Of a stretch of DNA of 33,648 bases, positions 12,816 to 28,885 are shown piece by piece. Source of the DNA: Thermodesulfovibrionales bacterium (GTDB lineage: Bacteria; Nitrospirota; Thermodesulfovibrionia; Thermodesulfovibrionales; JdFR-86); NCBI GenBank assembly GCA_030682405.1, contig JAUXOF010000046.1, forward strand, positions 1 to 33,648, read 5' to 3'. A program made the position numbers and the translations under genes. The notes under the pieces were generated by a model, which had not been told where the DNA came from, searched no databases, and saw only the letters and a list, made by a program, of their open reading frames with translations. Every line of letters starts with the position of its first letter. The stretch's first letter is position 1.

Positions 12816-14720
12816 TTACCTTGCCCCTTCCTTCATCATCCCTTCCACGCTCGGGAACTTGGAGATGTCGGTATGCGGGAGAAAGAGCGCGGACATATAT
12901 TCGTCCATGAACCCGCTTGATACCGAAAGCTCAACATAGGTCATCTTATTGGCGATTTCCATGGCCTCTTCCCTCATCCCCTCGGAAAGCAGGCAGAGGT
13001 ACGCCCCTGTTATGGAGGCGTTGCCGATAAATGAGAACTTCTCAAGCGGCATGTCAGGGAGCATGCCGAGTATTATCGCCTTTTTTACGTCAAGGTAGTT
13101 TCCAAACCCGCCTGCTATGTAGACCTTCTTTACGCTGGCCTGCGTAAGGCCAACCTCCCTCAGAAGTAAAGAAACCCCGGCGTATATCGCAGCCTTTGCG
13201 CGGAGGATGTTTTCTATATCCGCCCCGGTAAGGGTGATGTCCCTCCCCCCGGCCTCTCCTTTATATAACACAAACTCCGGGCCTTCCTCCGTGTCCCTCA
13301 TGCGCCATGCCTCGTCCTGCGGAACGGCATCCCCAAGGAGCTTACCCCCCCGGTCTATTATCCCCTTAAGAAACATCTCAGAGACGGCATCTATCATGCC
13401 GGAGCCGCATATGCCCGATGGAACCCCTCCGCCTATGACGCGGATTATCGGCCTCATGCTTCCGGGCTCTATGCTTACTGCCTCTATGGCGCCTTCAGTC
13501 GCCCTCATGCCGTGCTTTATCCCGCTTCCCTCAAAGCACGGCCCTGCCGAGCAGGCCGCAGTAAGCAGCCATTCGCTTCCGCCCACTGCTATTTCTCCGT
13601 TTGTGCCTATGTCCATGAAAAGCGCAACCTCTTCAGACCTGTTCATGCCGGAGGCCAGAACCCCTGAGACAATGTCCCCGCCCACATAGCTTGCCACCGC
13701 AGGCATTGTGCAGACCGGGGCCTGAGGGTTAATCCCCAACCTTGCCGTGCCGGCCCGCCACATCGGGAAGAAATTCACAGCCGGGATATAAGGCTCCTCC
13801 CTTATGTGGCCGGGGTCAAGCCCCCAGTAAAGATGAGCCATCGTTGTGTTGCCTGAGATTACGGCGGACTCGATGTAATCCCTGTCAAGGCCGTGCTTTT
13901 CAACTATGGCGGCAAGGAGATTCTCAATGTCAGTGACAACCGCATCCCTTAAGTCCTCAAGCCCCCCGCCCTCTGATGCGTATATTATCCTTGTGATTAC
14001 GTCGTCCCCGTATCTTATCTGGGAGTTATATGTAGAGCCGACATCAACAAGCCTTCCGTGTGCGAGGTCTATAAGATACAGGACTATTGTGGTGGTGCCT
14101 ATGTCAACGGCTATGCCGTAGCGGTCTTTTATATCCGAGGCCGTTATGAAAATCGCCTCAGGAGCGCCGGGCACGGGTTCAGCGTACGCTATGAGTATGT
14201 CCCATCCGGCAGACCTCAAAGTGGCGCTCAGGCTTGAGGAAAACCTGTGGGAGAACCTCATGTCCTTAATCCCCTTTTGCTCAAGCGCCCTTTTTAGGCG
14301 CTCAAGATCGCTTATGTGGTCCTCTATCGTGGGCTGCGGGAGCTTGAGCCCGAGCCTCTTTACAACCGGCTTAATCTCCGCCTTAAAAGACAGAAGGAGC
14401 TCAAAAAGGTCTTTTGAGCGTCCAAGCGCAATCTTATCTCCTACAACGAGCCTTGAGCCTTCGGGGATTTCCATAAGAATGTTTTCTTTGGGATAGGTTT
14501 GGCAGGCAAGGGTTATCGCTGCCTTGCGCTCGGCCTCCGTGAGCTTGCCGTATGAGGCGACCCCTGCCGCGCCCTCAATGAGCCTTACTTTACACTTGCC
14601 GCATGTGCCCTTGCCCCCGCACGATGCGGTAAGGTATATCTCATGCCTTTTGAGGGTGTTGAGTATGCTTTCGCCTTTGGCAGCGGAAAGGGATTTTCCG
14701 GTAGTAAGTTTGATGTCCAT
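12816..14720 (-). CDS. ferredoxin-ASKHA reductive activator of corrinoid proteins (RACE / DUF4445)
   Basis: This 634-aa protein has an N-terminal plant-type [2Fe-2S] ferredoxin domain with cysteines C34, C40, C43 and C73 (SCGGKGTCGKCKV, LACQT). A linker runs from 85 to 195. The C-terminal ASKHA ATPase domain starts with YGIAVDIGTTT (201-211) and continues with VISGNTTMAHLYWG, LFMDIGTNGEIAVG and ACSAGPCFEGSGI. Proteins of this layout use ATP to re-reduce inactive Co(II) corrinoid in methyltransferases and the CO dehydrogenase/acetyl-CoA synthase system. No corrinoid protein or methyltransferase is encoded in this window, so its partner lies elsewhere. The ATG at 14720 has a TGTTAAAAT box 9 nt upstream and no Shine-Dalgarno. 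It converges with the panC operon. Confidence 0.9.
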   Translation of the reverse strand: MDIKLTTGKSLSAAKGESILNTLKRHEIYLTASCGGKGTCGKCKVRLIEGAAGVASYGKLTEAERKAAITLACQTYPKENILMEIPEGSRLVVGDKIALGRSKDLFELLLSFKAEIKPVVKRLGLKLPQPTIEDHISDLERLKRALEQKGIKDMRFSHRFSSSLSATLRSAGWDILIAYAEPVPGAPEAIFITASDIKDRYGIAVDIGTTTIVLYLIDLAHGRLVDVGSTYNSQIRYGDDVITRIIYASEGGGLEDLRDAVVTDIENLLAAIVEKHGLDRDYIESAVISGNTTMAHLYWGLDPGHIREEPYIPAVNFFPMWRAGTARLGINPQAPVCTMPAVASYVGGDIVSGVLASGMNRSEEVALFMDIGTNGEIAVGGSEWLLTAACSAGPCFEGSGIKHGMRATEGAIEAVSIEPGSMRPIIRVIGGGVPSGICGSGMIDAVSEMFLKGIIDRGGKLLGDAVPQDEAWRMRDTEEGPEFVLYKGEAGGRDITLTGADIENILRAKAAIYAGVSLLLREVGLTQASVKKVYIAGGFGNYLDVKKAIILGMLPDMPLEKFSFIGNASITGAYLCLLSEGMREEAMEIANKMTYVELSVSSGFMDEYMSALFLPHTDISKFPSVEGMMKEGAR

Positions 14721-14787: not shown

Positions 14788-17088
14788 TTACTCTTCCTTT
14801 AGCGCGGCTATGTGATACATGCCTGCTGCAACTTCCGAGATGCCGGTAAGCCCGCTGAAGCGATGGGGCACCGGCTTTTCCGGGCGCTGCTTGAGGTTCC
14901 AGCCCCATACCCAGAGCGTGCCGTCGGATTTAAGCGCGGCAGTCTGGTTCATGCCGGCAGCGATGCCCTTTGCGTCCGAAATCTCGGCTATCTTCGTCGG
15001 GATGCTCTTTGCAACAGTGGTGCCGTCGCCCAACTGCCCGTAGTCGTTAAATCCCCATGTCCAGACCGTGCCGTCTTTTTTGACCGCTGCGGTATGGCCT
15101 CCGCCTGCGGCTATGGCGCTGACGCCTTTGACCCCTTTTACCTCGGTAGGCATATACCTGTCGGGCTGGATTGTGCCGTTTCCTATCTGGCCGTAGTCGT
15201 TCCATCCCCATGCCCAGACAGAGCCGTCTTTCTTGAGCGCCACTGAGTGGTGCTGGCCTGCCGTGACTGTCACGACATCGCTTATGTCAGTGACCTTAAC
15301 AGGCCTGAGGCTGTCGTCCGTAGAGCCGTCGCCCAACTGGCCCTTAAGGTTCCATCCCCATGCCCAGACAGAGCCGTCTTTCTTGACGGCCAATGTGTGA
15401 TACCAGCCTACCGCAATGGCGGCCACATCGGTAAGCCCCCTTACCTGAACAGGGACACGGCTGTCGCTGAGGGTGCCGCTTCCCAACTGCCCGTAGTAGT
15501 TTCTCCCCCATGTCCAGACCGTGCCGTCTTTTTTGAGGGCTGCGGAGTGCGACCAGCCTGCCGCAATGGCGACCACGTCGGTAATCCCCTTTACCTGAAC
15601 AGGCGCCATGCTGTCCTTGAGGTTGCCGTTTCCCAACTGGCCCTTGAGATTTCTCCCCCATGCCCAGACAGTGCCGTCCGATTTAAGGGCAAGTGTATGT
15701 TCCCCGCCCGCGGCAATGCGGACGGCGTGAGTAAGCCCGCTTACCTGAACGAGGTCGTTTCTGCTCATTGTGGAGCCGTCTCCCAACTGGCCGTAGTCGT
15801 TCAATCCGCCTGCCCAGACCGTCCCTTTTTCGCCCACAGTCTTTACGGTGACGCAGGACTGCTGGCTCTTGCCGGATTCGTTGCCTGAGGCATCAAAGGC
15901 GCTGACCCTATAGCAGATGGCTATGTTGAGGTTTGACTCCTCTGTTGACATGGATGTAGCAGTCACGGATTTGTGATAAGAGTCGTTTCGGTAAACCTTG
16001 TACCCCTCGACCCCGACATTATCCGTGGAGCCTATCCATGACATTTCCACGCGCGTGGGCGTGGCAGCCATGGCGGTAAGCCCTGCCGGAACGCCCGGCG
16101 GCTCCGTATCCCGTGTGGTTAAGGTTCTGGCGCATGCCTCGTTGCTCATGCCGGACTCGTTTCCAACGGCGTCAAAGGCCGTTACCGTGTAACAGTATCT
16201 GGTGTCCGGGGTCAGGCGTGAATGCGCCTCGGATACGGCCCTCGCCGTCTTAAGCAGTGCGCCCCTGTGATAGACGTTGTACCCGGTCACTTCCTTGTCG
16301 TCGGTTGAAGGGTTCCATGCGAGCTTTATCTCCGCGGCTGAAACGGCCTCTGCCTTGAGCCCGGTTGGTACGGTAGGGGAACTGTCCGCTGCCGCCGGCG
16401 TTGTTGCGCAGGCCTCGTTGCTCGGCGCGGATTCTGTTTCGGATTTATCTACGGCTGTAACGGTGTAGCAATAGGTTGTCCCCGGAGAAAGCCCTCTTGA
16501 GGTTGCGGAGGCGCCCTTTACAGAGGTCAGCATACTGCCTGCTTTGTAGACCTTGTATTCGGCTATCCCGAGTTCCGACTTCGATGCGGTCCATGTCAGC
16601 TCTATCTGTGTCTGCGCGACGGCCTTTGCCTTAAGCCATGGGGCTGTGGGCGGAGCCGGCTTTTTGGCGATTACCACAGGTGCGGGCGGAGGCGGGGGAG
16701 GCGGGCGAGGCGCGGCCCTTTTTGTGCAGACCTCCTCGCTTTTCCCGGACTCGTTCCCCGCAGCATCCAAGGCGCTTACTGTAAAGCAGTATGTGCCGGA
16801 CGGGGTTAAGCCGCTGTAGTATGCGGACGGTTGGGTTACGGACTCAAGCATGGCCTTGCCCTGATAGACCCTGTATTCGACCACTACAGTGTTGTCTCTT
16901 GAGGGAGACCATGCAAGCTTCAGTTCAAATGGGGAGACCGTGTTAATCGCAAGACCCGCAGGCACGCTCGGAGGCTGGGTGTCTTCCGCTTCTTTCCTTT
17001 CGCACCTGCTCAACAGGAAAAAAACCAAACCAACCGCAAGTGCGAGTAATAAAAGTATAATAAGGATTAAACGTTTTCTGTCTTTCAC
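14788..17088 (-). CDS. membrane-anchored FN3 and RCC1-repeat surface protein
   Basis: This 766-aa protein has a basic N-terminus and one hydrophobic helix (7-26). Four fibronectin type III domains follow (about 38-122, 146-230, 238-322, 328-416), with a proline-rich hinge at 127-150 between the first two. Seven RCC1-type repeats (about 422-766) carry signatures such as WAWGWNLKGQLGDG and IAAGGGHTAAVKKDGT. Seven RCC1 blades are the number needed for a closed beta-propeller; the last lacks the GQLG signature. Each FN3 domain carries a YCxTV-like strand and a C-terminal cysteine, so one disulfide per domain is possible. C29 follows SR and is not a lipobox. The start codon is GTG. Probably an adhesion or protein-binding factor outside the inner membrane; partner unknown. 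Confidence 0.88.
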   Translation of the reverse strand: MKDRKRLILIILLLLALAVGLVFFLLSRCERKEAEDTQPPSVPAGLAINTVSPFELKLAWSPSRDNTVVVEYRVYQGKAMLESVTQPSAYYSGLTPSGTYCFTVSALDAAGNESGKSEEVCTKRAAPRPPPPPPPAPVVIAKKPAPPTAPWLKAKAVAQTQIELTWTASKSELGIAEYKVYKAGSMLTSVKGASATSRGLSPGTTYCYTVTAVDKSETESAPSNEACATTPAAADSSPTVPTGLKAEAVSAAEIKLAWNPSTDDKEVTGYNVYHRGALLKTARAVSEAHSRLTPDTRYCYTVTAFDAVGNESGMSNEACARTLTTRDTEPPGVPAGLTAMAATPTRVEMSWIGSTDNVGVEGYKVYRNDSYHKSVTATSMSTEESNLNIAICYRVSAFDASGNESGKSQQSCVTVKTVGEKGTVWAGGLNDYGQLGDGSTMSRNDLVQVSGLTHAVRIAAGGEHTLALKSDGTVWAWGRNLKGQLGNGNLKDSMAPVQVKGITDVVAIAAGWSHSAALKKDGTVWTWGRNYYGQLGSGTLSDSRVPVQVRGLTDVAAIAVGWYHTLAVKKDGSVWAWGWNLKGQLGDGSTDDSLRPVKVTDISDVVTVTAGQHHSVALKKDGSVWAWGWNDYGQIGNGTIQPDRYMPTEVKGVKGVSAIAAGGGHTAAVKKDGTVWTWGFNDYGQLGDGTTVAKSIPTKIAEISDAKGIAAGMNQTAALKSDGTLWVWGWNLKQRPEKPVPHRFSGLTGISEVAAGMYHIAALKEE

Positions 17089-17167
17089 GCCCTATTAAAG
17101 TATCAAAGCGTTTCCTGATTTGTCAAGGATGGACAAGGCTTTCCAACAGGAAAAAACCATGGGAATT

Positions 17168-17176
17168 TGATAAACT
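17168..17176 (+). promoter_or_regulatory. extended -10 box (TGATAAACT) 5 nt before nagZ
   Basis: TGATAAACT fits TGn plus a TATAAT-like hexamer (4 of 6) and is followed by TTCCC and the ATG at 17182. There is no purine-rich ribosome-binding site, so a leaderless mRNA is suggested. The divergent RCC1 gene starts 94 nt away. Confidence 0.35.
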
Positions 17177-17181
17177 TTCCC

Positions 17182-18636
17182 ATGCCTAAGAACATAACCG
17201 AAAGGCTCTACCAGCTTATAGTAAGCAGGCTTGACGGGGAGGAAATCCCCAAAGGCCCTTACCGCCGAAGGATATTGAGGCTCGTTGAGGCGGGGGTTGG
17301 AGGCTTCATAGTGTTCGGGGGCATGGCTGATGCGGTCGGGCCGTTCATAGAAGAGATTCAAGCCGCCTCTCCCTCGCCCCTTTTCATAGCCTCGGACATT
17401 GAGCGCGGGGTGGGGCAGCAGATAAAGGGCTTCACCGAGTTTCCGCCCCAGATGGCTCAGGCAGCGGCAATAGACAGAAACAGGCCCGAAGATGTCCGTT
17501 TGCTGAGAAGCGCGATAGCCGCAATAGCGGATGAGGCCTCGTGCGCGGGCATAAACATGCCTCTCATACCGGTTCTGGACGTCAACCGCAACCCCGATAA
17601 CCCGATTATATGCACGAGGGCGTTTTCAGACGACTGTGAGACAGTACCATGGTTCGGGGCGGAGTATATAGCAGCCCTTGAATCATCCGGGCTTATAAGC
17701 TCTGCCAAGCATTTCCCCGGGCACGGCGACACATCCACGGATTCCCACATGGCCCTTCCAGTCATAGGGAAGTCTTACGATGAACTGATGAGGGAAGACA
17801 TAGCCCCGTTTAAAGAGGCGATAGGCAAAGGGGTCGGCTCAATCATGGCAGGGCATCTTTTAGTCCCGGCCCTTTCAGACAAGCCTGCGAGCATGTCCGA
17901 AAGGATAATCACCGGCTTGCTGAGGGGCGAGCTCGGCTTCGGCGGCCTCGTGCTTACCGATGCCCTGAACATGGATGCCCTGAAGGGCTTTGGGAATGTC
18001 CCCGCAGGGTGCCTGAACGCCGGAGCGGACATACTCCTTCATCCCTCAGACCCTGATGAAACCGTCAGGGAACTCCTCTTTGCACTCAAATCCGGCATCG
18101 TTAAGGAAAGCCGGATTGACGAGGCACTAAGCCGCATCGCAAGGGCAAAGGAGAAAATCCGCCTGAGGAGGCGGATTGAGCCGGACCTTCAGGCAAACAG
18201 GCGGCTCTCATCCGGGATTACAGAGAGGTCCATAACCCTCGTTAAGCATACGCGCGGTGTACTTCCGCTTTCAGGAAAGGTTTCCGTAGTCTTGGCCGGA
18301 GACAGAGGCATTTATGAGAAGTCCCGGTTTAAGAGCTATTTCAGGGATGCGCGCAATCCTGAGACAACCGTATTTGCGATATTCACGGCTGTATCCGCAT
18401 GGAAAGGCAACTCAGGCATAAGCGATGTGGAAAGGCAGAGGGTTTCAGCCCTCATAAGGAAGTCCCCTATGTCCGTGGTCGTGTCTTTCGGAAGTCCATA
18501 TGTCCTGCGCTGTTTTAATGAAGCTGATATACTGATAGCGGCCTACGGGCCTGACGACGAGGCCCAACGCGCCGTTATAGAGCGTTTGAAGGGCGATGCC
18601 CCATTTAAGGGCAGGCTTCCTGTTAAAATAAGCTGA
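17182..18636 (+). CDS. nagZ: glycoside hydrolase family 3 beta-N-acetylhexosaminidase (NagZ-like)
   Basis: This 484-aa enzyme has the NagZ layout: GGFIVFGG, ASDIERGVGQQ, and DVNRNPDNPIICTRAF. The catalytic histidine loop KHFPGHGDTSTDSH is at about 176-189 and the nucleophile Asp at about 260 in LVLTDALNMD. NagZ removes GlcNAc from anhydro-muropeptides during cell-wall recycling. E. coli NagZ is about 340 aa; the extra 140 residues here form a C-terminal GH3-type domain seen in longer members. There is no signal peptide, so it is cytoplasmic. The ATG at 17182 is preferred to a TTG at 17167. The symporter gene follows after one base, giving a nagZ-symporter-nagA-protease unit. Confidence 0.9.
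   Translation: MPKNITERLYQLIVSRLDGEEIPKGPYRRRILRLVEAGVGGFIVFGGMADAVGPFIEEIQAASPSPLFIASDIERGVGQQIKGFTEFPPQMAQAAAIDRNRPEDVRLLRSAIAAIADEASCAGINMPLIPVLDVNRNPDNPIICTRAFSDDCETVPWFGAEYIAALESSGLISSAKHFPGHGDTSTDSHMALPVIGKSYDELMREDIAPFKEAIGKGVGSIMAGHLLVPALSDKPASMSERIITGLLRGELGFGGLVLTDALNMDALKGFGNVPAGCLNAGADILLHPSDPDETVRELLFALKSGIVKESRIDEALSRIARAKEKIRLRRRIEPDLQANRRLSSGITERSITLVKHTRGVLPLSGKVSVVLAGDRGIYEKSRFKSYFRDARNPETTVFAIFTAVSAWKGNSGISDVERQRVSALIRKSPMSVVVSFGSPYVLRCFNEADILIAAYGPDDEAQRAVIERLKGDAPFKGRLPVKIS
18621..18629 (+). promoter_or_regulatory. internal promoter-like box (TGTTAAAAT) at nagZ 3' end
   Basis: TGTTAAAAT lies inside the last codons of nagZ, 8 nt before the symporter ATG at 18638. It is the third copy of this nonamer in front of a gene start. 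It could allow symporter, deacetylase and protease to be expressed apart from nagZ. Confidence 0.3.
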
Positions 18637-18637
18637 G

Positions 18638-20347
18638 ATGAAACTCACACTTTTAGATTGGACGATAGTTGCCTCTTACATGGCGGGTTCCCTTGCCTTA
18701 GGCCTGTACTATACGAAGAAGGCGTCCTCAAGCACGGACGAGTTTTTTCTCTCAGGGAAGAACCTTCCGTGGTGGCTTACCGGCACATCCATGGCGGCAA
18801 CCGCATTCGCCTCTGACACCCCGCTTTATGTGACCGGGCTTGTCCGCTCACAGGGCATATACGAGAACTGGCAGTGGTGGTGCTTTCTCATAGGCGGGAT
18901 GCTCTCCGTGGCCTTGTTTGCGAGGCTCTGGAAATCGGCCGGCGTGATGACCGATGTGGAGCTTACCGAGATGAGATATTCGGGCAGGGCGGCCTCTGCG
19001 CTCAGGGGCGTTAAGGCGGTCTATTTTTCCCTCTTCATCCACACCATCATAAAGGCGCAGGTCATACTTGCAATGGCCAAGATACTGGACGTCTCATTGG
19101 GCTGGAGCAAATGGGAGGCAATAATCATCTCAAGCGGGGTAACGATATTTTATTCCATGATGTCCGGCTACTGGGGTGTTGTGGTGACGGACTTTTTCCA
19201 GTTCATAATAGCGATGATAGGCGCTGTGCTGATAGCCTATTACGCCGTGGACAAGGCCGGCGGCCTTGGAGGGCTTACGGAAAAAATAACATCCGTCCAC
19301 GGAGAGGGCCAGCGCTATACGGACTTCTTCCCCCCGCTTGACGGAGGAATCCTAAGCCTGCCGGTTCTCACTTTCATAGCCTACATGGGCATGAACTGGT
19401 GGTCAAAGTACTCCTCGGACGGCGGCGGGGTCATGGTTCAGAGGATGGTCTCGTCAAAAAGCGAAAACCACGCCATCGGCGCGACATTCTATTTCAACAT
19501 AGTCACTTATGCCGTGAGGTCATGGCCGTGGATACTTGCAGCAGCCGCCTCCCTTGTCATTTACCCTTCGGTCAAAGACCACGAATCAGTATACCCCATG
19601 ATGATGGTAGACCTCCTGCCGAATGGCATGAGGGGCCTCATGCTCGCCTCCTTTTTTGCCGCATTCATGTCAACCCTGAGCACATACCTGAACCTCTCGT
19701 CGGCTTATTTCATAAACGACTTCTATAGGAGGTTTCTGAAGAGAGACGGGACGGAAAGGCATTATATCGCGGTGACGAGGGTCTCCATGCTCGCGCTCAG
19801 CATGGTAACCGCGGTTGCGACATACTATGCCACATCCATAGTGGAGGTCTTTAAATTCCTCATAGCCTTCGGAAGCGGCACAGGGCTTGTCTACCTTGCG
19901 CGCTGGTTCTGGTGGAGGGTCAACGCATGGAGCGAGATATCCGCAATGGCCGCATCCACGGTCATCTCATCCTACCTGTATATGGCGCATCCTTCGCTGT
20001 TTTTTTATCAGAAGCTGTCCCTCATAATAGTCTTTTCAACGATAATATGGGTGGCCATGACGTTTCTTACCATGCCTGTAAATGAGGAGCGCCTGATTGA
20101 GTTTTACAGGCGCTCGGGCGTCGGCGGGCCGGGATGGAGGGCTGTTGAGAAAAAATCAGGAGAGTCGCGGCTGAGGGACTCCGGTCTCGGCATGGCTATG
20201 AAAAACTGGCTCTGGGGCACTGTGTTTATCTACGCCATTACGCTCGGTGCGGGAATGCTCCTTTTCGAGAGGGCTGCCGAGGGCGGCATCTGTCTATCTG
20301 TGGCCGCCGTATCCGGAGTATTCGTGTATAAGGGGTTCATGAAGTGA
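18638..20347 (+). CDS. sodium:solute symporter (SSS/SGLT family)
   Basis: This 569-aa integral membrane protein has about 13 hydrophobic helices. The family N-terminus is LDWTIVASYMAGSLALGLYY, followed by STDEFFLSGKNLPWW, the unwound first-helix region, and FFAAFMSTLSTYLNLSSAYF in the sodium-site helix. Members import sugars, amino acids or similar solutes with Na+. Sitting between nagZ and a NagA-like deacetylase, it most plausibly imports an amino sugar or muropeptide product, but the substrate cannot be read from sequence. Its stop overlaps the next gene's GTG (GTGA). No ribosome-binding site is visible; an extended -10-like box precedes it. Confidence 0.9.
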   Translation: MKLTLLDWTIVASYMAGSLALGLYYTKKASSSTDEFFLSGKNLPWWLTGTSMAATAFASDTPLYVTGLVRSQGIYENWQWWCFLIGGMLSVALFARLWKSAGVMTDVELTEMRYSGRAASALRGVKAVYFSLFIHTIIKAQVILAMAKILDVSLGWSKWEAIIISSGVTIFYSMMSGYWGVVVTDFFQFIIAMIGAVLIAYYAVDKAGGLGGLTEKITSVHGEGQRYTDFFPPLDGGILSLPVLTFIAYMGMNWWSKYSSDGGGVMVQRMVSSKSENHAIGATFYFNIVTYAVRSWPWILAAAASLVIYPSVKDHESVYPMMMVDLLPNGMRGLMLASFFAAFMSTLSTYLNLSSAYFINDFYRRFLKRDGTERHYIAVTRVSMLALSMVTAVATYYATSIVEVFKFLIAFGSGTGLVYLARWFWWRVNAWSEISAMAASTVISSYLYMAHPSLFFYQKLSLIIVFSTIIWVAMTFLTMPVNEERLIEFYRRSGVGGPGWRAVEKKSGESRLRDSGLGMAMKNWLWGTVFIYAITLGAGMLLFERAAEGGICLSVAAVSGVFVYKGFMK

Positions 20348-21198
20348 GGCTGATAGACATCCATACCCACGGCCTTGCGGGTGCGGACACGCGCACGGAA
20401 GACCCGGAAGACATAATCAGGATGGCGCTGGCCCACGGCTCTTCAGGCGTATCCGGCATAGTCCCTGCCATATATCCGGGAGCTGCGGCGGCAATGAGGA
20501 AAAACATGTCCGCTGTCAGGGAGGCGATGGAAAAACAGCAAGGCGCCGGGCCGGCGCAAATAATCGGGGTTCATCTTGAAGGGCCGTTTCTTAACCCCCT
20601 CAGGTGCGGGGCGTTGGACAAGGGCTCGTTCCTTAAGCCCACTGAATACAATCTCAAATCCCTTGTCGAGGGGTTTGAGGACATGATAAGGATAATAACC
20701 TTGGCGCCTGAGATTGACGGGGCGCAAGGGCTTATCAGGAGGATACGGGATATGGGCATTGCCGTAAGCATGGGCCACTCCGATGCGACATATGAGGAGG
20801 CGGAGGCGGGTTTTAAGGCCGGCGCAACCGGGATAACCCACATATTCAATGCGATGTCCGGGTTTCGGCACAGGCAACCGGGGCTTGCCGCTTTCGGACT
20901 GCTGAACAGGGAAGTCTATATAGAGGTCATATGCGACCCTTTTCACCTTCACCCAAAAACGATTGAGCTTATATTCAGAACAAAGAACCCTGAAAGGATA
21001 ATCATAATCTCGGATTCAATAAAAGGCACGCGCCCCGGCGAAAGGGGCACAACCCCGGTTGCCGACGGCTCAGGCAGGCTTTTGGGCGGCTCGATGACGA
21101 TTGCGGAATCGTCTAAAAGGCTTATGGACATGGGGCTTGCCGAAGATGTTATAATGCGGTGCATCAGCGAAAACCCGGAGGGGTATTTATTATCATGA
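20344..21198 (+). CDS. nagA: short N-acetylglucosamine-6-phosphate deacetylase (NagA-like)
   Basis: This 284-aa amidohydrolase has the metal and catalytic residues of NagA: H7-x-H9 in IDIHTHG, E79 in HLEGPF, H145 in MGHSDATY, H166 in THIFNAM, H201 in the CDPFHLHP segment, and catalytic D224 in IISDSIKG. It should remove acetate from GlcNAc-6-P. Typical NagA has about 380 residues; this one begins right at the HxH strand and lacks the small N-terminal beta-sandwich half. The GTG start overlaps the symporter stop by 4 nt, and no upstream in-frame extension is needed. Since all active-site residues remain, it is probably active, though a different N-acetyl sugar is possible. It overlaps the next gene by 4 nt. 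Confidence 0.85.
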   Translation: MRLIDIHTHGLAGADTRTEDPEDIIRMALAHGSSGVSGIVPAIYPGAAAAMRKNMSAVREAMEKQQGAGPAQIIGVHLEGPFLNPLRCGALDKGSFLKPTEYNLKSLVEGFEDMIRIITLAPEIDGAQGLIRRIRDMGIAVSMGHSDATYEEAEAGFKAGATGITHIFNAMSGFRHRQPGLAAFGLLNREVYIEVICDPFHLHPKTIELIFRTKNPERIIIISDSIKGTRPGERGTTPVADGSGRLLGGSMTIAESSKRLMDMGLAEDVIMRCISENPEGYLLS

Positions 21199-24511: not shown

Positions 24512-24547
24512 TTCTCTGTGGGGTCAGACGCATCCGGAGGTCAAAAA

Positions 24548-27500
24548 ATGAGATTCATCGGTCTTGATGCAGGCTCTGTCAGCGTCAAGGCCGTGGTGAT
24601 TGACGCAGGCGGCAGGAAGCTTGCGGACTTTTACAGGAAACACTCAGGGCATCCAATCGGGGTTGCCCTTGAGGTGCTCCGCGCGTGCGTTTCGCCTCCT
24701 CATGGTTCATCCGGAAGCGCGCACGGGTTTTCCCTCTCGGTCACAGGCTCTGCAGGCAGGCTCATAGCATCGTTATTGGGGCTTGAGCCTGTAAACGAGA
24801 TAGTGGCGCAGGCCTATGCCACAGGCAGGCTCCACCCGCGCATAAAGAGCGTCATAGAGCTCGGAGGCGAGGACTCCAAGCTCATACTGCTTGATAAGGG
24901 CGTGAAAGACTTCTCCATGAACTCGGTCTGCGCCGCAGGCACAGGCTCTTTTCTGGACCAGCAGGCAGAGAGGCTCAGGCTTTCGATAGAGGAGTTCGGC
25001 GAGATGGCCCTTAAGTCTAAAAAGCCGCCCCGCATAGCAGGAAGGTGCAGCGTCTTTGCAAAGTCAGACATGATACACCTTCAGCAGATAGCCACGCCCA
25101 TGGAGGACATAGTGGCAGGCCTTTGCTTTGCAGTGGCAAGGAACTTCAAGGGCACGGTATCAAGGGGCAGGCAGATGACCGAGCCGGTCTCTTTTCAGGG
25201 AGGGGTTGCCGCTAACAAGGGCATGGTGAGGGCATTTAAAGAGGTATTCGAGCTTAAGGAGCTTTTCGTGCCCGAGGATTTCGCCCTCATGGGCGCATGG
25301 GGCGCGGCGCTCAAGGCAATGGACAGGGGCTTAATCAATAGTTTTGACCTCAAGGCCATAGAGGAGTTTTTGGTGCGGGACAGCGCCAACGCCAAGGGCC
25401 ACAGGCCGCTTGCAGAGACAGGCGACGACTTCTTCGAGAGGCACGGGGCCGACACTGGCGTGCTTTACGCTCCTGCCGCCGGGGGAAAGACCCCTGCTTA
25501 CATGGGCATAGACATAGGCTCCATAAGCACAAACCTTGCGGTGACGGACGAAGACGGCAGGCTTCTTGCGAAAAGATACCTCATGACAGCAGGGAGGCCC
25601 ATAGAGGCCGTAAGGCAGGGACTTGACGAGATAGCCCAAGAGGTCGGCGGCACGACCGTCATAATGGGCGTGGGCGCCACAGGCTCGGGCAGGTACATGA
25701 TAGCGGATTTCGTGGGCGCGGATATCGTCAAGAACGAGATTACGGCTCAGGCGACAGCCGCCGCATTCATAAATAAAAACGTAGATACGATATTTGAGAT
25801 AGGCGGGCAGGACTCAAAATACATCTCCTTGCGCAACGGAGTGATAGTGGACTTTGAGATGAACAAGGCGTGCGCCGCAGGCACGGGATCCTTTCTTGAG
25901 GAGCAGGCGGAAAAACTCGGCATCTCCATAAAGGACGATTTCGCCGGGCACGCCTTTTCATCTTCAAACCCCCTGAGGCTCGGAGAAAGGTGCACGGTGT
26001 TCATGGAAAACTCCCTCATGGCCAACCTCCAGAGGGGCGCAGGCAAAGATGACCTCCTTTCAGGGCTTTCATACTCCATAGTGCAGAACTACATAAACAG
26101 GGTGGTTGCCGGAAAGCCCATCGGGGAAAACATATTCTTTCAGGGCGGCGTCGCCTTCAACAAGGCGGTTGTGGCCGCATTTGAAAAATACCTCGGTCGT
26201 CCGGTTACCGTGCCTCCGCACCACGATGTCACAGGCGCAATAGGAATGGCCTTGATTGCCATGAGGCACATGAAGGAAGGCAGGTCGCCTTCTACTTTCA
26301 AGGGGTTTTCGCTCGGAAAGAGGCAGTATTCCGTCAAGTCGTTTGAATGCAGGGGATGCCCGAACGTCTGCGAGATAAACAGGGTCAAGATAGAGGGTGA
26401 AGAGGGCAGTCTCCTTTACGGCGGCAGGTGCGAAAAATACGACATAAGAAGAAAAAGGGCTGACAACGGCCTTCCAGACCTCTTTGCGTTCAGGGAGGAG
26501 AGGCTGCGGGGTTGCACTGCCCCGGCAAAAGGGGTTACCAACCCCTCGGTAAAAGAAGGCGCTCACTCATCAAAAGGGGTTACCATAGGCCTGCCCGGCA
26601 TATTCTTTTTTCACGACCAACTGCCCTATTGGGTTACGCTCCTTGAGTCCCTCGGATTCAATGTGGAGGTCTCGCCTAATACAAACAGGGCGATTATAAG
26701 CAGGGGGCTTGAGAGCGTGCTTTCCGAGGCGTGCTTTCCTCAAAAGGTCGCCCACGGCCACATAGCCCACCTTATGGACAGCAATGTGGATGCCCTCTTT
26801 ATACCGAGCTTCGTGAACATGAACAAAGGCACGGATGAGTTTCCCAAGGGCGCGTCATGCCCGTACGCCCAGACCATGCCCTATGTCGCAAGGGTCGCAT
26901 TCAGCGGGATTAAGACCGTCACACCCGTAATAAACGAGGCATTGGGCAAGGGTTATATGGCCAAAGAGCTTATGCGGGCGTTTAAGCAATTCCGCATAGG
27001 CAGGCGGGAGGTCCAAAAGGCTATGGAGGCGGCTCAAAAGGCACAGGCTGAATTCGAGGCGTCCATAAGGGAAAAAGGCAGGGATGCGCTCTCAGGCTTG
27101 GCCGAGGGGCAGAGGGCAGTGGTCATAGTGGGCAGGGCGTATAATGCGTTTGAGCGGGGCATGAACCTTGAGATACCGGAGAAACTGGCGGCCCTCGGAG
27201 TGCTCTCCATACCCATGGATTTTCTGCCCCTTGAGGATATGCTGATAAGCAACGACTGGCCGAACATGTACTGGAGTTCCGGCCAGAGGATACTCAAGGC
27301 CGCAAGGTTCATTGCAGGCCACCCCAATCTCTATCCAATATACATAGGAAATTTCTCCTGCGGCCCGGACTCCTTCATACTTAAGTATTTCAAAAAGGAA
27401 CTCCGCGGCAAACCCTTCCTCCATATAGAGATAGACGAGCACAGCGCGGATGCCGGAGCAATAACAAGGTGCGAGGCGTTTTTAGACAGCATCGGGGGCG

Positions 27501-28756
27501 GCGCCCACTCGGCAATAAAGCCCGCAGCAGCAGCAAAAAAGAGGGCCGCATCATCCTCCATCCGTCAAAAAACAGTCTATATCCCCCGCATGTCAGACCA
27601 TGCGTTTGCCCTTCAGGCCGCATTCGAGCGCTCGGGCGTGCCTGCCTCCGTGCTGCCAGAGCCGGACAAGGAGACAACCGAACTGGGCATGAAGTACGTC
27701 TCAGGGAAGGAGTGCTACCCCTGCGCGGTTACCACAGGGGATATGCTCAGGAAGGTCTTTTCTTCTGATTTCAGGCCGGATGAATCGGCATTTTTCATGC
27801 CCTCAGGCACAGGCCCGTGCAGGTTCGGCCAGTATAACGTTTTCCACAGGCAGGTGCTTGAAGACATAGGGTTTGACAATGTCCCGATATTTGCGCCGAA
27901 TCAGGATATCGAGTTCTACAGGGACCTCGGAATGGCGGGCAAAAACTTCCCTGCGGATTCGTGGAAAGGCATAGTCGCCATAGAACTGCTCTATAAATGC
28001 CTGCACGAGACAAGGCCGTATGAGAGGCAAAACGGCTCTGCGGATGCGCTCTACGGAGAATATCTTAAGAGGCTTTATCTTTCCCTGAGAGACCATAACG
28101 GCAGTCTCATGCCCGATGATGTGCTCCGGGAGGCAGGAAGGGAATTTGAGGCCCTTCCGAGGCATAAGGAGAGGCGGCCGCTCATCGGGGTCGTGGGGGA
28201 GATATTCGTCAGGTCAAGCAGGTTCTCAAACGAGGACCTCATAAGGAAGATAGAGGCGCTGGGGGGCGAGGCATGGCTTGCCCCGGTGGAGGAGTGGGTC
28301 TATTACGTAAACCATACCGCCCGGCGCAGGGCATTGCTATATAAGGATTTCTCTGCTATGATTAACATCTCCCTTAAGATGTTCTTTCAAAAGAGGATAG
28401 AGCAAAGATATGCGGCTTGTTTTAGTGGCTTCCTTAAGACGGCCCATGAGCCTTCCACAAAGGAGATACTGAAGAAGGCGTCCCCTTATGTGCACGACTC
28501 ATTCGAGGGAGAGACCGTCCTCAGCATCGGCAAGTCGGTAGACCTTGCCGAAAAAGGGGCTGCGGGCATCATAAATGCAATGCCCTTCGGCTGCATGCCC
28601 GGCACTATCGTTACTGCCCTCATGAGGGGCATAAGCAGGCAGTACGGCATACCGGCCATAAACATCCCTTACGACGGGACGGAGTCCTCGACCGTCCTGA
28701 TACAGCTTGAGGCGTTTATGGAACAGGCGAAAACACGGATGGGCCGTAAAGATTAA
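24548..28756 (+). CDS. giant acyl-CoA dehydratase activase-like protein: two ASKHA domains plus dehydratase-like C-terminus
   Basis: This 1402-aa protein contains two BcrAD/BadFG-type ASKHA ATPase domains (about 1-257 and 316-577). Each has the motif set GLDAGS or GIDIGS, GGEDSK or GGQDSK, and CAAGTGSF, whose cysteine coordinates a bridging [4Fe-4S] cluster. A cysteine segment CRGCPNVC (near 600) and a DUF2229-type region follow (about 679-940, with CFPQK and FSCGPDS). A C-terminal part resembles the dehydratase D component, with GKECYPC near 1055 and PFGCMPG near 1330. Relatives use ATP to push single electrons to very low potential, for 2-hydroxyacyl-CoA dehydratases, benzoyl-CoA reductase or double-cubane cluster proteins. 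Here activator and acceptor halves are fused. The ATG at 24548 with GGAGG is preferred over a GTG at 24518. The substrate is unknown. Confidence 0.9.
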   Translation: MRFIGLDAGSVSVKAVVIDAGGRKLADFYRKHSGHPIGVALEVLRACVSPPHGSSGSAHGFSLSVTGSAGRLIASLLGLEPVNEIVAQAYATGRLHPRIKSVIELGGEDSKLILLDKGVKDFSMNSVCAAGTGSFLDQQAERLRLSIEEFGEMALKSKKPPRIAGRCSVFAKSDMIHLQQIATPMEDIVAGLCFAVARNFKGTVSRGRQMTEPVSFQGGVAANKGMVRAFKEVFELKELFVPEDFALMGAWGAALKAMDRGLINSFDLKAIEEFLVRDSANAKGHRPLAETGDDFFERHGADTGVLYAPAAGGKTPAYMGIDIGSISTNLAVTDEDGRLLAKRYLMTAGRPIEAVRQGLDEIAQEVGGTTVIMGVGATGSGRYMIADFVGADIVKNEITAQATAAAFINKNVDTIFEIGGQDSKYISLRNGVIVDFEMNKACAAGTGSFLEEQAEKLGISIKDDFAGHAFSSSNPLRLGERCTVFMENSLMANLQRGAGKDDLLSGLSYSIVQNYINRVVAGKPIGENIFFQGGVAFNKAVVAAFEKYLGRPVTVPPHHDVTGAIGMALIAMRHMKEGRSPSTFKGFSLGKRQYSVKSFECRGCPNVCEINRVKIEGEEGSLLYGGRCEKYDIRRKRADNGLPDLFAFREERLRGCTAPAKGVTNPSVKEGAHSSKGVTIGLPGIFFFHDQLPYWVTLLESLGFNVEVSPNTNRAIISRGLESVLSEACFPQKVAHGHIAHLMDSNVDALFIPSFVNMNKGTDEFPKGASCPYAQTMPYVARVAFSGIKTVTPVINEALGKGYMAKELMRAFKQFRIGRREVQKAMEAAQKAQAEFEASIREKGRDALSGLAEGQRAVVIVGRAYNAFERGMNLEIPEKLAALGVLSIPMDFLPLEDMLISNDWPNMYWSSGQRILKAARFIAGHPNLYPIYIGNFSCGPDSFILKYFKKELRGKPFLHIEIDEHSADAGAITRCEAFLDSIGGGAHSAIKPAAAAKKRAASSSIRQKTVYIPRMSDHAFALQAAFERSGVPASVLPEPDKETTELGMKYVSGKECYPCAVTTGDMLRKVFSSDFRPDESAFFMPSGTGPCRFGQYNVFHRQVLEDIGFDNVPIFAPNQDIEFYRDLGMAGKNFPADSWKGIVAIELLYKCLHETRPYERQNGSADALYGEYLKRLYLSLRDHNGSLMPDDVLREAGREFEALPRHKERRPLIGVVGEIFVRSSRFSNEDLIRKIEALGGEAWLAPVEEWVYYVNHTARRRALLYKDFSAMINISLKMFFQKRIEQRYAACFSGFLKTAHEPSTKEILKKASPYVHDSFEGETVLSIGKSVDLAEKGAAGIINAMPFGCMPGTIVTALMRGISRQYGIPAINIPYDGTESSTVLIQLEAFMEQAKTRMGRKD

Positions 28757-28789: not shown

Positions 28790-28885
28790 GTGGGCAGTGT
28801 CGTAAAGTGGCGCAAGAAAAAGATGAGCAAGCACAAGCACAGAAAACTCAGGAAGCAGACCAAGTTCCAGAGAAGAAATAAATAA
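28790..28885 (+). CDS. 31-aa AURKAIP1/COX24 (mS38-like) domain protein
   Basis: GTG at 28790 and TAA at 28883 enclose 31 residues beginning GSVVKWRKKKMSKHKHRK and ending in KFQRRNK. Fifteen residues are Lys or Arg. The W-R-K-K-K-M-x-K-H-K-x-x-K-L-R-K pattern is the AURKAIP1/COX24 (DUF1713) signature. That domain is known from the mitochondrial small-subunit ribosomal protein mS38 and occurs as very short stand-alone proteins in several bacterial phyla, so ribosome association is the natural inference. The gene lies 33 nt after the activase stop and has the perfect Shine-Dalgarno at 28776-28785. Co-transcription with the activase is possible but unrelated in function. It is easily missed because of its size and GTG start. 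Confidence 0.88.
   Translation: MGSVVKWRKKKMSKHKHRKLRKQTKFQRRNK

Follow-up and report, generated by a model that had tools for sequence, protein, structure and literature searches.

A putative single-chain, ATP-driven reductase of the PlsA/Ger type in the order Thermodesulfovibrionales

Enzymes of the PlsA/Ger group are reported to convert a phospholipid ester into a vinyl or an alkyl ether (PMC12838417, PMC11150832). Plasmalogen synthase is described as a single gene of 4.2-4.9 kb in Enterococcus, Lactococcus and Bifidobacterium, with PlsA published for L. cremoris, and as the gene pair plsA-plsR in C. perfringens; its domains are given as Act1, Act2, Red1 and Red2, and its expression in E. 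coli resulted in plasmalogens (PMC12838417). Ger from D. alkenivorans and T. maritima is reported to have produced sn-1 alkyl ethers in E. coli (PMC11150832), and the T. maritima protein, Tmari_0479, is described as differing in domain layout from plsA-plsR of C. perfringens (PMC8788747). Validated Ger proteins are described as PlsA-like, with two PF01869 domains; according to the same report, homologues with one PF01869 domain accompany plasmalogens in most of the genomes screened, and Ger and PlsA are indistinguishable from sequence alone (PMC13274423). Here we analyze a stretch of 33,648 nt from a Thermodesulfovibrionales bacterium (phylum Nitrospirota; contig JAUXOF010000046.1, assembly GCA_030682405.1), hereafter the window, and in it a gene of the plus strand (24548..28756) whose 1402-residue product we consider, with moderate confidence, to be a single-chain ATP-driven low-potential ester reductase of the PlsA/Ger type.

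Domain organization and conserved cysteines

The gene is a real open frame, correctly placed. Conservation was evaluated in an alignment of 110 rows, comprising the window protein and 109 loci, with some genomes present twice; a greedy pick at <72% mutual identity leaves 43 of them. The ATG at 24548 is the likely start, because it is preceded by the motif GGAGGT and a methionine occupies the start column in 92 of the 110 rows; a GTG at 24518 is a possible but less likely alternative.

Searches with Pfam and NCBIfam identified two BcrAD_BadFG/CoA_E_activ domains, each containing both cluster cysteines, and TIGR00241 matched the protein in two stretches with an E of 6.5e-88. The first activase domain, Act1 (residues 1-290, 24548..25417; PF01869/TIGR00241), contains Cys128 and Cys167, and the second, Act2 (residues 315-592, 25490..26323), contains Cys442 and Cys482. 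They are followed by a linker with the motif C601-X2-C604-X3-C608-X19-C628 (26348..26431) and by the first acceptor domain, Red1 (residues 665-1000, 26540..27547), which on its own retrieves DUF2229 plus an HGD-D tail and carries Cys729, Cys771 and Cys938. The remaining stretch, Red2 (residues 1001-1402, 27548..28753), is a divergent HGD-D-like domain with Cys1056, Cys1091 and Cys1349, which on its own retrieves only a weak HGD-D tail (E 0.017). However, a profile comparison of Red1 and Red2 with hhalign gave 98.9% probability (E 1.1e-17), with the three cysteines of each superposed. This homology indicates that the chain is organized as Act1-Act2-linker-Red1-Red2, and its order Act1-Act2-Red1-Red2 is that published for PlsA. 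Thus, two claims of an earlier note on this DNA, that ATP-driven activators and a dehydratase-like acceptor are fused on one chain and that both activators are complete with their cluster cysteines, are borne out by the domain matches and the conserved cysteines; its single C-terminal acceptor part is indeed acceptor-like, with conserved cysteines, but consists of two homologous domains. That note had noticed neither the second of these domains nor the CX2CX3CX19C linker, nor a very small bS22-like gene downstream.

Structural models were in agreement with this organization. AlphaFold2 modeled residues 1-660 with a pLDDT of 87.3 and a pTM of 0.78, and residues 590-1402 with a pLDDT of 88.0 and a pTM of 0.87. 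The best matches of the Act1-Act2-linker model were activators of hydroxyacyl-CoA dehydratases and of methylbenzoyl-CoA reductase, and all 14 PDB chains matching the C-terminal model at E <=0.001 belong to the BCR/HAD/DCCP family. In a second alignment, with VIA-align, the Red1 model matched HAD 3o3n_B (Z 15.4, 263 residues, 3.7 A), BzdNO 8s02_B (Z 13.8) and the double-cubane cluster protein (DCCP) 6eno (Z 13.4). When PDB sequences were searched by profile, using alignments of linker-Red1-Red2 and of Red2, all the chains listed were unrelated.

The cysteines C128, C167, C193, C442, C482, C601, C604, C608, C628, C729, C771, C938, C1056 and C1091 are present in 110/110 rows, and C1349 in 108/110, the other two rows having gaps; the C-terminal cysteines, whose loss in homologues would have spoken against the earlier note, are therefore conserved. 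We also compiled a table of 42 rows from several subfamilies and phyla, from which L161 and L176 (truncated) and L167 and L168 (no activase) were left out; the frameshifted L179 was excluded from the alignments and the tree. In this table, the activase cysteines occur in 37/37 rows having Act1 (36 true Act1 rows, since the Act1 stretch of L139 is really its second activase) and in 42/42 rows for Act2. The Red1 cysteines are each found in 41/42 rows and those of Red2 in 41, 41 and 40 of 42, the non-cysteine cells coming from L133, L139 and L143. The linker CX2CX3C is present in 39/42 rows, with altered spacing in L137 and no motif in L139 and L143, and in the three-gene systems it is located at the end of the activase gene. 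The exception is C193, found in 16/37 rows, which are those of clade A (the clade of the window protein, see below) and L143. The conserved plan is thus of 2+2 cluster cysteines in the activases, four in the linker and 3+3 in the acceptors, and the same plan occurs in homologues from Listeria, Fusobacterium, Collinsella, Haliovirga and Acetoanaerobium. Non-cysteine invariant residues are also common to the window protein and the homologues on what we call below the PlsA side.

In HgdC, two subunits bridge one [4Fe-4S] cluster. The feature of HgdC-type activases, an ASKHA domain with two cluster cysteines per protomer, is present in both Act domains, which would be enough for Act1 and Act2 to bridge one such cluster in the same way. 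The linker probably represents an extra Fe-S or metal (zinc) site, as judged from the conservation of its cysteines. As for the acceptors, the Red domains also show the feature of HAD systems, an HGD-D fold in which three cysteines serve a [4Fe-4S] cluster, Red2 through its homology to Red1 only; in each domain the three cysteines would suffice to hold one such cluster while leaving an iron open.

BzdN is reported to bind an [8Fe-9S] cluster through six cysteines in one subunit, a cluster otherwise reported only for DCCP, and BzdO and HadB to bind a [4Fe-4S] cluster through three (PMC11971306). With three cysteines per acceptor domain conserved across subfamilies, the protein is compatible with two [4Fe-4S] sites of the kind seen in 2-hydroxyacyl-CoA dehydratases rather than with the double cubane that the earlier note had offered as an option, which we rejected for the Red domains on this count. 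We therefore consider it very improbable that the protein is a DCCP-like double-cubane reductase of small molecules (acetylene or azide, for example): the modeled Red1 has the DCCP fold (6eno, 7yyl), but six ligands per subunit are required (PMC11971306), and the extra cysteines frequent in the alignment, and only within clade A (C975 in 105/110, C1151 in 98/110 and C1059 in 86/110 rows, none invariant), still do not total six in either domain. Additionally, 10 relatives with the fused gene have a full-length HGD-D gene elsewhere, on other contigs and adjoined by a small activase, and this gene would be the likelier DCCP.

Distribution, phylogeny and family assignment

In the genome of origin (99.77% complete) the fused gene is the single match to its family; there is no further BcrAD_BadFG match and no further HGD-D match, only the tail of the fused gene itself (E 0.007). 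This suggests that the acceptor most likely resides within the chain, and a single-chain ATP-driven reductase with a built-in acceptor is, in our opinion, very probable. That the activase halves instead work for another enzyme, a separate CoA-ester dehydratase of the classical kind or a benzoyl-CoA reductase, with the Red halves as a scaffold, would agree with the resemblance of the activase domains to the activators of those enzymes; nevertheless, the conservation of the Red cysteines and the lack of any other HGD-D match in the genome make it extremely improbable, and a separate CoA dehydratase was rejected as electron sink on the latter ground. Among relatives, an HGD-D match at E <=0.001 was found in 20/61, tails of the fused family included. 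The full-length HGD-D genes of the 10 relatives mentioned above lie on contigs other than that of the fused gene, so the linkage to a classical dehydratase that the earlier note had named as refuting its reading was not observed.

Matches to the fused protein occur in 57/61 genomes of the order (own included), most of them full length at 54-72% identity; those in G010, G014 and G057 are weak, divergent or limited to the activase. More widely, DUF2229 was found in 100/198 genomes of the phylum, and the best 80 of the 344 relatives that named genomes yielded are mostly labeled Nitrospirae, Nitrospirota or Thermodesulfovibrionales, with a few labeled only as bacterium and one Deferribacteres. Two scans of viral contigs did not find any relative.

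The family appears in several architectures: fused; Act1-Act2-Red1 plus a separate Red2; three genes; and a shorter fused form in Paraclostridium. The plsA-plsR-like split, cut between Red1 and Red2, is found in Fusobacterium (975+404 aa) and in five Nitrospirota loci, and the three-gene form in Monoglobus and four Nitrospirota loci. In L131, L132, L133 and L134 (from G014, G017, G022 and G038) and in L142, genes for an activase with linker, a Red2-like and a Red1-like protein lie side by side, and in G017, G022 and G038 this version coexists with a fused clade A gene. Two further loci, L167 and L168 (G079, G088), contain adjoining Red1-like and Red2-like genes and no activase on the stretch fetched. 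The Paraclostridium form (L143, 5971-9846 of a plasmid record; 1282 aa as annotated) is without the linker motif and the Red2 cysteines, and has a Crp/Fnr regulator and an ABC transporter nearby. The fused genes of L154-L159 (families f20 and f24) form a separate clade B, with 41-43% (Act2) and 31-36% (Red1) identity to the window protein, and L137 (4922-9097 of G014 C40) is a very divergent fused Act1-Act2-Red1-Red2 with changed linker spacing and a long tree branch.

A tree of 39 rows, with L139, L143 and L133 left out, separates 11 rows from 28 with 100/100 support. The 11-row side contains Listeria, Acetoanaerobium, two Collinsella, Haliovirga, Fusobacterium and five two-gene Nitrospirota forms; on the other side are clade A, to which the window protein belongs, clades B and C, the three-gene forms and L137. 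We named the 11-row side the PlsA side on two grounds: its layout is plsA-plsR-like, and the identity among its Listeria, Acetoanaerobium and Fusobacterium rows and one of Collinsella is 43-54%, like that of published PlsA proteins; the name is presumptive, since none of its rows is experimentally characterised. Ger could fall on either side of this split. For these two reasons, membership of the window protein in the PlsA/Ger group is likely by anatomy and unproved by descent.

Several lines of evidence support this assignment. The protein has the domain order of PlsA, two PF01869 domains as in tested Ger, the fold of the acceptor family in Red1, and the cysteine plan and other invariants of the PlsA-side homologues, among which the plsA-plsR-like split recurs; it is also the sole family match in its genome. 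In addition, PF09989, present in four of 14 control genomes (T. maritima, L. lactis, Thermus composti and Deinobacterium chartae), occurs in the species for which Ger is published and in L. lactis, PlsA being published for L. cremoris. Finally, Ger homologues, of unstated subfamily, are reported in 14/23 Black Sea Nitrospirota metagenome-assembled genomes (PMC11868695).

Other observations weigh against it. Clade A lies outside the presumed PlsA side with 100/100 support, a split that stands with three long rows removed, and the Nitrospirota families f21, f23, f24 and f26 carry the PlsA-side two-gene form. Identity of the window protein to the presumed PlsA proteins is 27-30% (E 1e-93 or lower), at or below the >30% that is required, together with E <=1e-30, in the cut-off published for assignment to characterised PlsA/Ger (PMC13274423). 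PF09989 also occurs in genera that are not known to make ether lipids; some strains with plsA homologues are reported to make no plasmalogen (PMC12838417); and Ger2, a close paralogue of Ger, is reported to have given no ether lipid in E. coli, perhaps because of inclusion bodies or a lack of soluble protein (PMC11150832). The literature matches listed included no report of ether lipids in this bacterial group, and no lipid gene was seen beside the fused gene. Red2 was not covered by the listed HAD matches, although the top rows of that table were filled by Red1, so this is no evidence against its fold.

Gene neighbourhood

A gene for a COX24_C/bS22-like protein of 31 aa (28790..28885, plus strand; PF08213, E 1.1e-10) starts 33 nt past the stop codon of the fused gene, with a GTG start and its own ribosome-binding site. 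COX24_C proteins are reported to be ribosomal protein bS22 in Cutibacterium and Mycobacterium (PMC10085706). The C-terminus of the fused gene could be placed in 55 of the 61 genomes of the order (four lack a match, G010 and G057 were not used, and G014 was counted through the divergent L137), and in 51 of these 55 the bS22-like gene is situated downstream on the same strand, the distance between match ends having a median of 85 nt and a range of 14-483; the match in G060 scores just below the family cut-off. In the remaining four it was located on another contig (three genomes) or not found (one), and another four genomes carry it without a placed fused gene. It also follows L137 of G014, suggesting that L137 is the same locus, much changed. 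Among the fetched loci, it was detected by the profile in 97/106 and by a strict pattern in 15/106; it was seen neither in L164, from within the class, nor in any of the six clade A loci from outside it, two of which had <600 nt of downstream sequence. By this distribution, the fused and bS22-like genes look like an old operon of one class. The pairing may reflect merely shared constitutive expression, or it may hint at function.

In agreement with the earlier note, no dehydratase, CoA-transferase or partner reductase gene was seen beside the fused gene. A census of 85 loci, a few of them from one genome twice, identified in 37 of them a convergent AmiA-like gene, at <=900 nt downstream. A weak MetE-like gene (Pfam score below cut-off) is situated downstream in 27 of the loci and, further on, tmk, holB, PSP1 and metG in 17-20. 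No conserved neighbour points to the substrate, and we rejected the neighbourhood as a functional guide.

The context and the tree could nevertheless be read in another way: that clade A, together with clades B and C, has taken on a function other than that of PlsA/Ger and is a sister class that retains the same single-chain machinery for a non-lipid substrate. The position of clade A apart from the presumed PlsA side, the match in 57/61 genomes of the order, the conserved pairing with a ribosomal-protein-like gene and not a lipid gene, and the extra Cys193 would all favor this idea. However, domains, cysteines and invariant residues are common with the PlsA side and the neighbours suggest no competing substrate, so that we regard it as rather unlikely. 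Its more specific form, in which clade A would be a distinct core non-lipid reductase of Thermodesulfovibrionia, acting on a non-CoA substrate from an operon with bS22 and possibly serving the translation apparatus, appears doubtful.

Elsewhere in the window, a RACo-type protein (12816-14720, minus strand), with 2Fe-2S ferredoxin and RACo linker, middle and ASKHA C-terminal domains, adds a second protein to the ATP-dependent reductive activators of this stretch. A long protein encoded at 14788-17088 (minus strand) has fibronectin-type and RCC1-like repeats by eye, and a glycoside hydrolase family 3, a sodium:solute symporter and an amidohydrolase follow in a row at 17167-21198 (plus strand), perhaps for amino-sugar recycling. 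ARAGORN detected no tRNA in the window, and Rfam gave no match there at the gathering threshold.

Proposed reaction and comparison with described systems

Under our favoured assignment to the PlsA/Ger type, ATP hydrolysis in the Act pair would drive electrons, one at a time and perhaps through the linker site, into Red1, and from there to Red2; most likely, electrons stay in the chain. Red1 would be the relay and Red2 the catalytic half, as suggested by the cysteine spacing of Red2 (35, 258), which is close to that of the catalytic BzdO (33, 252), the spacing of Red1 being 42, 167. The carbonyl of a glycerol ester in a membrane phospholipid would be reduced at Red2 and then protonated, and the loss of water would give a vinyl ether or, further on, an alkyl ether. 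This is the chemistry proposed in print for PlsA, described as two electron reductions, protonation and dehydration (PMC8788747). We find it fairly probable that membrane glycerol esters are the substrate, and a membrane-lipid ester is at least a better-founded guess than the unknown small substrate of the earlier note. The gene would then belong to the core of the order and make its membranes partly ether-linked.

If the lipid assignment is true, most genomes of this Nitrospirota order should make ether-linked lipids, which matters for bacterial ether-lipid biomarkers. If it is false, a whole deep branch of the PlsA/Ger family acts on something unknown, and metagenome surveys that score its members as Ger arrive at too many producers of ether lipids. 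The observation itself is sound: an enzyme of a described kind, in bacteria for which its activity is so far a prediction. The fused form, set beside the split and three-gene ones, also illustrates the ways in which electron pump and acceptor can join or part.

Contrary to the earlier note, for which activator and acceptor are normally separate, the fused layout is not new, since the PlsA of lactic acid bacteria and Bifidobacterium is described as encoded by one gene (PMC12838417). The window protein resembles PlsA and PlsA-PlsR (C. perfringens CPE1194-1195) in the order Act1-Act2-Red1-Red2, the conserved cysteines and the HAD-family acceptor, and the single-gene PlsA of Enterococcus, Lactococcus and Bifidobacterium (~1400-1640 residues, against 1402) in being encoded by one gene; it differs in its low identity to presumed relatives, in lying outside their clade and in having a product and an activity that are predicted. 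With Ger (T. maritima Tmari_0479 and D. alkenivorans SHJ90043.1) it shares a PlsA-like chain with two PF01869 domains that works without a separate dehydratase, a comparison made from the published descriptions of Ger. Dehydratase systems have separate activator and dehydratase genes, usually adjoining a CoA-transferase gene, an arrangement not seen at this locus. The 2-hydroxyacyl-CoA dehydratases and their activators (3o3m/3o3n; 1hux, 4eht) are similar in activase fold and cysteines, in acceptor fold and in three acceptor cysteines, as in HadB, whereas the window protein has all parts on one chain, a four-cysteine linker and no CoA-transferase context. DCCP/DCCP-R and YjiM/YjiL share the acceptor fold, as seen in Red1, and the activase fold; theirs is a double cubane with six cysteines per subunit and separate genes, against three cysteines per domain here, and the one YjiL examined, from Klebsiella, is without the linker motif of the window protein. 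Lastly, the class I benzoyl-CoA reductase BzdNOPQ likewise has two unlike acceptor subunits, although it contains a double cubane in BzdN, acts on a CoA ester and is built of separate subunits.

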